From NCBI RefSeq assembly GCF_023638055.1, contig NZ_JAKRVY010000003.1, positions 300,143-334,881 of the forward strand: a DNA stretch of 34,739 nucleotides, in the 5' to 3' direction. The notes beneath the pieces are model-generated. The model did no database searches, had not been told where the DNA came from, and was given only the letters and a program-made list of their open reading frames with translations. The position numbers and the translations under genes are program-made. Below are positions 22,562 to 24,970 of the stretch, piece after piece. The stretch is from Natranaeroarchaeum aerophilus. Its GTDB lineage: Archaea > Halobacteriota > Halobacteria > Halobacteriales > Natronoarchaeaceae. Position 1 is the first letter of the stretch. Every line of letters starts with the position of its first letter.

Positions 22562-23257
22562 CTATGTCCCTCCCGCGCTCGCCTGTGCGGCGGCGCGGCT
22601 GTTGTCGCCGACCAGTATCTGTCGCACGTCACCAAGCACGTCGAAGTCCGCGAGCACGACCAGTCGATCGCCCTCCTCCAGTGATTCGTCCGGGTCAGGA
22701 ATGTCAAGTGGTTCATTCTCCTTTCCGAACGCGAGCACGGTTGCGTCCGCGGGAAGCTGGAGTTCGCTAATTGTGTAGCCCCGCGTCGGCGCTTCTTCAG
22801 TCACCGTCAACTCGACGACCTGCAGGTTCTGGGCGATATCGGCGATCGCGCGAATATCGCCGCCGAGCAGGGCGTTTTTCGCGCCGATCGCGCCCAGCCG
22901 TTCGGGGTAGACGATCTCGTCGACCTCGGCCGCGTACTTCCGGTAAATATCCTCTCGGTAGTCCTCGTCGATGCGCAGGATCGTCCGACAGCCGTGGTGT
23001 TTGCCGATCAGACAGGCCGGGAAGTTGGTGTTGAGATCCCCCGAGAGCGCGCCGAGGGCGTCGGCTTCGTCGATTCCGGCGCGTTCGAGGACTTCCTCAC
23101 GGGAGCCATCGCCGCCGACGACATCGAATCCCTGATCGCGGGCTCGTTCCGCGACCGCCGCATCGCGTTCTACCAGCGTCACCTCGTGTCCCTCTTCCTG
23201 GAGTACGCGACCGGTCCGCAGTCCGACTCGGCCAGCGCCTATGATAACAAACCGCAT
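22562..23257 (-). CDS. Single-RCK TrkA-family regulator (KtrA/TrkA-like)
   Basis: A 231-residue protein with one RCK_N and one RCK_C domain. The nucleotide site is MRFVIIGAGRVGLRTGRVLQ with GAGRVG, an acidic VTLVERD end of strand two, then VVGGDGSREEVLERAGIDEA. The ion-channel-regulator region includes EIVYPERLGAIGAKNALLGG. RCK_C starts at about 150 (LQVVELTVTEEAPTRGYTI). It is half the size of the TrkA at 6824-8155. Start at the ATG at 23257, where the Rossmann strand begins. No channel gene is adjacent; instead it is fused in tandem with the RAM gene. It may gate one of the two TrkH proteins or another cation channel. Confidence 0.92.
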   Translation of the reverse strand: MRFVIIGAGRVGLRTGRVLQEEGHEVTLVERDAAVAERARDQGFDVVGGDGSREEVLERAGIDEADALGALSGDLNTNFPACLIGKHHGCRTILRIDEDYREDIYRKYAAEVDEIVYPERLGAIGAKNALLGGDIRAIADIAQNLQVVELTVTEEAPTRGYTISELQLPADATVLAFGKENEPLDIPDPDESLEEGDRLVVLADFDVLGDVRQILVGDNSRAAAQASAGGT

Positions 23258-23365
23258 ATCAGCGCATACGCTTGCCCCCTTCAATAATGTTACTCCTGTA
23301 GTCGTCGATTGGCGGTTCCCTGGGTGGGTTCACAGTACGGTGATCTACCGCGTTATTAGCGACCG

Positions 23366-24589
23366 CTACTCGAACGATCGGACAGCAGCTTGACGCGCCA
23401 CCAGATACGCTGTGACCGTCACGCCGAGTAGCCCAACGATCAATCCGAACCCTGGGACTTCATCAGCGTCGACAACCCCATCGTCCTCGTCGCCCGTATC
23501 GATGTCAAGCTCGATCTCACGCTCCGTGGCCTGGTCGAGGTCGAGTGATGTAGGTAGAGGGCCGTGTTCTATCCCCGACCGTACGTCCTCTGCAGTACTC
23601 GCATCAGGCGAGGTGATAACGAACACCGGATTATTGACCCACGTCCCATCGTTGATCTGTTCAGCAAGCCCCCCTGTCATACTCAGCCCAGAAATTTCTT
23701 CGTCATCAATCGTGATTAGCTGACAGTAGCCGTAGGGCGGTTCTCCGGCTTCGCTCCAGGCACAGTTGTTGACTCCTTCTGTTGTAATGCCGCTCTCTTG
23801 TAACTGATCCACATATTCGGGGGCAGAGCTATCGGTGATGACGAGCGGCACCCGATACTGATTCGATTGTTCGGGTTGTTCGACACTGCCGATAGAGGCG
23901 ACGTCCTCCCTGGTCAGCAAGACGTCTTCTTCGTAGCCAGCCTCGGTATCGCTCGGATGGTGAATCACGATTGCCACGTCGTTACGATCCGTGATCAGGC
24001 TCCGAAGCCGCTCGCGGTCCCGGGCAGGTGCTTCGACAACGATTTCAGTGGTACCATCAGCGTCGGTAGTATGAGAAACAGTCGCATTGTCGTACCCGGC
24101 ATCGGCAAGTCTGGAATCGACGATCTCGACGAACAGATCTCCTGTCTCGTCAGTGACACCGGACCGGATCTCCGTCTCATCACCGTTGAGCCCGACTTCG
24201 TCGAGTGCTGATTCGAATTGTTCCTCCGAGATGTCGTCACTACGCACTTCCAGTGTAGCCTCGCTTCGATCGTAGACAACCTGTCGATCATCGACCCCGA
24301 GGTGGTCGGCAACCATATCGACGACATCGGACGGCGGTTCCTCTGACTCTTCGACGTTCTCAGCGGTGATCCCCACGAGGGGGCCGCGGATCTCGACGCC
24401 ATCGATCATCTCGGCGTCCGTGTCTGCCGCCGTGTTAGTAGCGATTGACTCCTCGCCAACTGCGGTACCCGCCACCCCAACCGCAGAGACCACTACCAGA
24501 ACTGACCCCAGCATAGCTAGCACAACGAACAGCCACAGCCATCGACGGAACGACAGGAAACCCCCACGGTTCGTTGGTTGATTCGACAT
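23366..24589 (-). CDS. SecD-like periplasmic-head protein with PGF-CTERM anchor, lacking the SecD channel
   Basis: A 407-residue secreted protein. An N-terminal hydrophobic segment (about 18-40, LWLFVVLAMLGSVLVVVSAV) is followed by a domain that follows archaeal SecD P1: DGVEIRGPLVGITAENVEES, LEVRSDDISEEQFESALDEV, TREDVASIGSVEQP, GLAEQINDGTWVNNPVFVIT and IEHGPLPTSLDLD. In SecD the Gly-Ala-Leu-Pro element leads into six membrane helices. Here the protein instead runs through an acidic stretch to DEVPGFGLIVGLLGVTVTAY (Pro379 on) with a short basic tail, which matches PGF-CTERM archaeosortase signals. A Cys pair in NNCAWSEAGEPPYGYC may form a disulfide. So this looks like a surface-anchored SecD head without translocation helices. 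Start at the ATG at 24589, with a TAAAATTTTA promoter upstream. It is monocistronic. Confidence 0.85.
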   Translation of the reverse strand: MSNQPTNRGGFLSFRRWLWLFVVLAMLGSVLVVVSAVGVAGTAVGEESIATNTAADTDAEMIDGVEIRGPLVGITAENVEESEEPPSDVVDMVADHLGVDDRQVVYDRSEATLEVRSDDISEEQFESALDEVGLNGDETEIRSGVTDETGDLFVEIVDSRLADAGYDNATVSHTTDADGTTEIVVEAPARDRERLRSLITDRNDVAIVIHHPSDTEAGYEEDVLLTREDVASIGSVEQPEQSNQYRVPLVITDSSAPEYVDQLQESGITTEGVNNCAWSEAGEPPYGYCQLITIDDEEISGLSMTGGLAEQINDGTWVNNPVFVITSPDASTAEDVRSGIEHGPLPTSLDLDQATEREIELDIDTGDEDDGVVDADEVPGFGLIVGLLGVTVTAYLVARQAAVRSFE

Positions 24590-24615
24590 GAATGAACCAA
24601 AGAATAACATTACAA

Positions 24616-24625
24616 TAAAATTTTA
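24616..24625 (-). promoter_or_regulatory. Palindromic TATA element for the SecD-like gene
   Basis: taaaatttta is a perfect ten-base palindrome centred about 31 bases upstream of the ATG at 24589, the right distance for a leaderless promoter. The plus strand continues as ttttacac, the same octamer as one half-site of the operator at 773-780. With such AT-rich motifs this may be chance. Confidence 0.5.
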
Positions 24626-24739
24626 CACGGCTATCCGGTACTCGAATCGCCACCTACAATTCAACGACTTCTCGAAACGTGGTCGTGTGATGACCCTGTC
24701 GCAGAAAGGTTTTTGACGTGCCATAGAGTACCACACAGC

Positions 24740-24970
24740 ATGGTTCACGCGTTCGTCATGGTGAAGACGGCAGCCGGGAAGTCGGAGAGTTTGCTCGCCG
24801 AGGTCCGCGACGAACCACATGTCGTGGAGGCCCACATCGTGGCGGGCGAGTACGATATCATCGCGGAAGTCGAAGTCGACGAAGTGTATCAGGTACTGGA
24901 CGCTTCGTCGAGCGGTATCCAGGCGCTTTCGGGCGTTAACGACACGAAAACGTACATCTCGCTTGACTAG
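24740..24970 (+). CDS. Stand-alone Lrp/AsnC ligand-binding (RAM) domain protein, second copy
   Basis: A 76-residue RAM-only protein, paralogous to the one at 22331: MVHAFVMVKTAAGKSESLLA, PHVVEAHIVAGEYDIIAEVE, LSGVNDTKTYISLD. The conserved HIVAGEYDII strand-turn forms the effector pocket in Lrp proteins. There is no HTH. It is the only plus-strand gene in its immediate neighbourhood and appears monocistronic, with a TATA-like gtttttgac about 28 bases upstream, so a leaderless transcript is likely. The stop overlaps that of the DUF5518-like gene (CTAG). Confidence 0.9.
   Translation: MVHAFVMVKTAAGKSESLLAEVRDEPHVVEAHIVAGEYDIIAEVEVDEVYQVLDASSSGIQALSGVNDTKTYISLD

Follow-up and report, generated by a model that had tools for sequence, protein, structure and literature searches.

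A Channel-less SecD P1 Protein with a PGF-Type Tail in Natranaeroarchaeum aerophilus and the Recurrent Origin of Stand-Alone SecD Heads in Haloarchaea

Introduction

The window considered here, i.e., the whole stretch of 34,739 nucleotides of Natranaeroarchaeum aerophilus DNA that was analyzed, harbors a gene on the minus strand (23366-24589; 407 amino-acid residues and a stop codon) that is a diverged duplicate of a secD of this lineage, in which the P1 domain has been kept and a PGF-type tail replaces the motor and channel domain, as seen from the sequence, the predicted fold and the phylogenetic tree. The gene, which was delineated from the list of open reading frames and a match to a SecD model, almost certainly encodes a channel-less SecD-P1 protein, and the sequence, the predicted fold and the phylogeny all give good support to a re-anchoring of P1 (base and head) at the C-terminus. 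Both building blocks, the SecD head and the PGF-type anchor, are already known, and it is the recurrent origin of such proteins that is of interest.

Bacterial stand-alone SecDF P1-head proteins are found in database annotation and possibly represent the same domain outside the translocase. In the searchable literature, the coverage of which is incomplete, we found no description of stand-alone, channel-less and anchored SecD heads in archaea. For SecDF, it has been proposed that P1 binds the emerging chain and moves this chain off the pore under proton flow (PMC6028853), and that the P1 head docks or recruits an extracytoplasmic chaperone (PMC9987972).

Relation to SecD and Predicted Fold

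Positions 10-356 of the NCBIfam model PRK08343 (haloarchaeal SecD, 522 positions) match residues 18-360 of the window protein (E 7.8e-64), i.e., the SecD profile is significant and the P1-type SecD segments are found in order, as had been stated in the initial annotation. With 216 bits, the score falls far short of the cut-off of 666 set for the full-length protein, because the window protein lacks the part covered by the last third of the model. A complete SecD of 541 residues, with the SecD_SecF_C membrane domain and a 4-base overlap of its gene with secF, is encoded elsewhere in the same genome and is 43% identical to the window protein; because this secD and secF are intact, the window gene is an addition and not a replacement. 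There is no secF adjoining or fused to the window gene, the neighbors of which are of TrkA type and Lrp/AsnC type. The Pfam model SecDF_P1_head gives 12.8 bits with the genome's own SecD (L002:1003-2628), below its cut-off of 27, and leaves that protein unrecognized. The silence of Pfam on the window protein therefore means little, and annotation probably underreports heads of this type. A sequence search of the PDB with the window protein returned no SecD relative.

All parts of the protein are encoded on the minus strand. The N-terminal hydrophobic helix (residues 13-37; 24479-24553), seen both in the AlphaFold2 model and in the hydropathy, is either a signal peptide or a retained TM1. It is followed by the N-terminal part of P1, which is mostly base (residues 60-202; 23984-24412), and by the P1 head (residues 203-345; 23555-23983; boundaries approximate) with Cys276, Cys289 and a GYC core. 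The signature G-x-x-L-x-G-G near the P1 start, which in the form G-[LVIA]-x-L-x-G-G is found in 68 of 68 SecDs, is lost from the base. The final P1 strand (residues 346-362; 23504-23554) follows the Gly-x-Leu-Pro element that had been noted earlier; here, HGPLPTSL of the window protein aligns with EAGSLPTTL of SecD. The remainder of the chain is composed of an acidic linker (residues 363-377; 23459-23503), modeled with low confidence by AlphaFold2, and the PGF-type tail (residues 378-407; 23369-23458), the scores of which are below curated cut-offs (see below). Upstream of the gene, a TATA-like element, AATTTTATTG, was read from the sequence by eye about 29 nt 5' of the ATG start codon (24613-24624, minus strand). 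Of the earlier proposal of a stand-alone gene with its own promoter, the former part holds, while the promoter is plausible in view of this element.

The AlphaFold2 model, for which the window protein and 24 relatives were used as input, has a mean pLDDT of 85, with values mostly above 90 for residues 60-362, and displays one complete P1 domain as well as a first helix (13-37) and a last helix (382-406). In a Foldseek search against the PDB, all 8 matches with E under 0.001 were to Thermus SecDF. Alignment with VIA-align to the isolated Thermus P1 structure (3aqo_C) yields a Z score of 14.1 over 189 residues at an rmsd of 3.0 Å, to be compared with 8.1 for the best unrelated chains, which align mostly on the ferredoxin-like base. 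In the structural overlay that had been suggested as a check, SecDF P1 is thus the best match.

The protein gives no Pfam match to PF02355 (SecD_SecF_C) and its C-terminal helix is single; about 20 residues lie between the end of P1 (about residue 362) and this helix, which confirms the earlier statement that the six-helix domain is missing. A pseudogene or frameshifted secD was ruled out, as the frame is intact and no membrane-domain remnant is found downstream; only 34 bp separate the stop codon from DNA in common with a sister species.

The C-Terminal Tail

In Haloferax volcanii, the archaeosortase A signal is composed of a PGF motif, a hydrophobic helix and a basic end (PMC7157517). The same tripartite end, i.e., PGF, a hydrophobic stretch and basic residues, is present in the window protein, where the tail reads VPGFG-helix-ARQAAVRSFE; the acidic linker, Pro-Gly-Phe-Gly helix and basic tail of the initial annotation are all found. 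When the last 45 residues were shuffled, PGF, helix and basic tail recurred in 24 of 200,000 shuffles. Archaeosortase A (ArtA) is encoded in the genome (TIGR04125, 340 bits; cut-off 75). The scores of the tail with the two curated PGF-CTERM models are 16.5 bits for PF18204 (cut-off 18.8) and 17.8 bits for TIGR04126 (cut-off 24.5). Because PGF-tailed relatives also score below the TIGR04126 cut-off (14.6-21 bits), this cut-off looks strict.

The assignment as a PGF-CTERM protein that is processed by archaeosortase, which had been made earlier, is therefore favored by the tripartite tail and the presence of ArtA and disfavored by both scores; the comparison with the curated model, which had been named as a possible refutation, does not come out cleanly. 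From its sequence, the window protein is probably anchored via the archaeosortase route, i.e., with processing and a lipid anchor. It is unlikely that archaeosortase A leaves the protein unprocessed and that the last helix is retained and anchors the C-terminus in the membrane, either by itself or together with the N-terminal helix. Such an arrangement would be consistent with the scores below both cut-offs and with the terminal nine residues, which are less basic than is typical, but a PGF motif directly in front of the helix seldom arises by chance, ArtA is found in the genome, and PGF or GPGF tails are present in independent relatives.

Local History of the Gene

In the nearest sister species (G001), the gene order is the same and the neighboring proteins are 86-99% identical, but the SecD-head gene is absent; the flanks nearly adjoin where a segment of 1367 bp (23332-24698) separates them in the window. 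The gene is therefore dispensable in that species. The insertion site (window 22562-24970) lies between the TrkA-type gene and a gene for an Lrp/AsnC ligand-binding domain, and in the sister species (L097:3783-5052) a second Lrp-type open reading frame is seen on the far side of the TrkA gene. Cargo of a mobile element was rejected as an explanation, because no target-site duplication or terminal inverted repeats are evident at the insertion edges and there is no plasmid or phage match. The GC3 value is 0.62 for the window gene and 0.73-0.87 for the neighbors and the genome's own secD. Two trees were built, one from the heads of 94 proteins and one from base plus head of 76 proteins; both place the window protein as the sister of the two SecDs from its genus (support 100/99). 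These data, in which two genomes are compared, fit a duplication in or near the genus, after which the copy was either lost from G001 or transferred into the genome of the window.

Stand-Alone Heads in Other Haloarchaea

A search with a short-form profile of 392 genomes of the order, after which the sequences were fetched, uncovered stand-alone heads in a number of groups; all counts given below are minimum numbers. The proteins of Halobacterium (genus g25; at least 6 genomes including Halobacterium sp. KA-4) comprise about 210-240 residues and consist of the head and a PGF tail, and those of Haloarchaeobius (g81; at least 4 genomes including H. iranensis) are also head only, with a TPGFT tail. 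The predicted model of the H. iranensis protein matches SecDF best (VIA Z 9.3 compared with 4.8 for the next unrelated chain), and the top 8 Foldseek matches are all SecDF. In genus g42 of family f4 (at least 5 genomes), base and head are followed by a GPGF tail. One genome of this genus (G097, L040:3855-6311) holds two tandem copies, both with GPGF tails, flanked by genes for a VLRF1-type release factor and DUF1611. Another f4 protein (G344) combines base and head with an LAGC lipobox. The heads of genus g19 (family f17; at least 9) lack a base and mostly carry an SRR-type N-terminus with a lipobox-like Cys; their genes adjoin M32 carboxypeptidase genes or lie between them, and this gene order is conserved in the genus (L037:2554-6193, also L126). 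The heads of family f5 (at least 12 genomes) are also short, and most of them combine a lipobox Cys with an SRR-type N-terminus; they share about 35% identity with an f17 head and are connected only weakly to SecD itself. Outside the order, a phylum-wide search at E 1e-10 returned no short forms among the matches listed.

A full SecD, separate from the head, was fetched from most of the genomes or genera with short forms. The type of anchor is not set by an absence of archaeosortase, as ArtA is found in 25 of 26 genomes, including those that use a lipobox. The Cys pair and the GYC core are retained in most stand-alone forms; the f17 lipoproteins have lost the Cys pair along with several core positions of their heads.

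A single origin of all stand-alone heads is rejected, because the log-likelihood drops by 159 (p-AU 1.1e-6) when 26 short forms are constrained to be a single clade. The g42 forms are placed within the g42 SecDs (support 95/85 and 100/98), the G344 form beside the SecD of its genus (100/94), and the heads of Halobacterium, Haloarchaeobius and f17 in one older clade (98/92). Together with the placement of the window protein, this support implies that SecDs have given rise to stand-alone heads on at least four occasions, where the long branches in the G344 and older-clade placements call for caution. An apparent extra origin for a stand-alone head in genome G252 (L049:3542-5650), seen in the head tree and gone in the tree of base and head, was not counted. 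This protein is 68% identical in the head and 29% identical in the base to its own SecD (L108), which suggests gene conversion of the head between the two genes.

Conservation of Head and Base

As a reference, we used 1286 SecD-SecD pairs of 38-55% overall identity, for which the identity of the head minus that of the base is on average -0.02 (sd 0.06, maximum 0.17), which shows similar evolution of the two parts in ordinary SecDs; because these pairs are not mutually independent, they provide a ranking and not a formal p-value. Compared with the SecD of the same genome, the window protein is 35% identical in the base and 56% in the head, a difference of +0.20 that is above all 1286 pairs. For the G344 form the difference is +0.20, and for the g42 forms it is +0.09 to +0.39; the L034 and L056 rows, artefacts of an upstream extension of the reading frame, were excluded. 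Every short form that keeps the base lacks G-[LVIA]-x-L-x-G-G, unlike the SecDs. In sequence, the base has thus drifted more than the head in each base-keeping lineage, and the remaining groups have dropped it, so that selection appears to keep the head.

The high identity of the head to the SecD head of the same genome, and the adjoining positions of the two in the trees, would be expected if the protein had to fit the same partners, i.e., if an extra head competed with SecD P1 or docked beside it at the translocon and thereby tuned the SecDF cycle or recruited chaperones. We consider this modulation to be quite improbable, because the base, which in SecDF joins the head to the membrane domain, has drifted or is missing, and because the proteins of the head-only groups have diverged very far from their own SecDs.

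Pairwise dN/dS values of close relatives are about 0.3-0.6 as estimated with a crude, simple counting method, which argues for moderate purifying selection on the stand-alone heads of the relatives, as judged from these sequences. It is very improbable that the window gene is a functionless, decaying secD duplicate that ends in a hydrophobic helix by chance. Its absence from the sister species, low GC3 and long branch would agree with decay, but the frame is intact, the domain is complete and confidently predicted, a TATA-like element is present, the PGF tail is new, and relatives with the same architecture are under such selection.

Genomic Context

No operon partner is shared across the lineages; the neighbors differ from one lineage to another, and the genomic context therefore points to no common partner. 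In two species of one f5 genus (g45), a gene for a Tat-type head lipoprotein follows tatC on the same strand at a distance of about 40-110 bp (L127:391-2253, L129:599-2001). A tatC neighbor is restricted to this genus, while elsewhere the neighbors are unrelated, and the adjacency of tatC to this distant f5 head gene is a hint, the sole contextual pointer to export.

The absence of an export-related neighbor common to the lineages could also mean that the P1 fold was freed for another task at the surface, such as that of an anchored protein that binds a ligand or a partner and has no link to export. The loss of G-[LVIA]-x-L-x-G-G and of the segment before TM2, the patchy distribution and the fast evolution are all in line with this possibility. 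On the other hand, it is the proposed polypeptide-binding head that is preferentially conserved in independent lineages, and the Cys pair and GYC core are retained in most forms; we regard such a task as somewhat unlikely.

Possible Function

Stand-alone heads were made at least four separate times, and the head therefore probably does a useful job by itself at the cell surface. In the window protein, the N-terminal helix would direct export, and archaeosortase A would probably trim the tail, which would leave the protein attached by a lipid to the outer side of the membrane, beneath the S-layer. Here, the head could bind unfolded stretches of exported polypeptides, as is thought for the SecD P1 head. 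In the absence of a motor any pulling function is lost; with neither proton-driven cycling nor SecF, the protein would be passive, diffuse freely and be uncoupled from the SecDF motor. A head that has no motor cannot cycle but is still able to bind polypeptides or a chaperone, which is the reason for proposing a passive, membrane-tethered holdase or receiver that may protect newly translocated proteins, or hand them on, in the narrow space below the S-layer.

The role as a holdase or receiver is assigned by analogy and is tentative. The explanation as a whole, i.e., a duplicate of the lineage's secD that is exported, anchored by archaeosortase and acts as a passive holdase or receiver, we consider to be slightly less than evenly probable. 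The initial annotation had raised an accessory to export that holds SecDF substrates; the protein may be such an accessory, a reading that is strengthened by the repeated origins and the retention of the head. More speculatively, haloarchaea may repeatedly make free, membrane-tethered extracytoplasmic chaperones from the SecD head and whichever lipid anchor is at hand, where the window protein would be a local, lineage-specific case.

A SecD head that has several times been split from its motor, conserved and tethered anew constitutes a natural experiment, which suggests that the head is of value without proton-driven cycling. It is also a small, soluble domain that poses a clear question, i.e., whether it binds unfolded secretory proteins, and some members of the group are amenable to genetics.

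Comparison with Known Systems

The window protein shares with SecD (PRK08343, TIGR01129) and with the P1 domain of SecDF (PDB 3aqo, 5xap, 5yhf) the base and head of P1, the order of the segments and the predicted fold, as well as the Cys pair and the GYC core. In contrast to SecD, it is devoid of the SecD_SecF_C six-helix domain, of an adjacent secF and of G-x-x-L-x-G-G, and a PGF-type tail has been added. With the PGF-CTERM proteins (TIGR04126, PF18204) it has in common the PGF motif, the hydrophobic helix, an Arg-containing end, the acidic linker and an ArtA in the genome; it differs from these in that the tail is below both curated cut-offs and that the extracellular part is a SecD head. 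The heads of Halobacterium, Haloarchaeobius, g42, g19, g63 and f5 likewise combine a SecD head that lacks the channel with a membrane anchor of its own, but they are of separate origins, many consist of the head only, and some are held by a twin-arginine-like N-terminus with a lipobox in place of a PGF tail.
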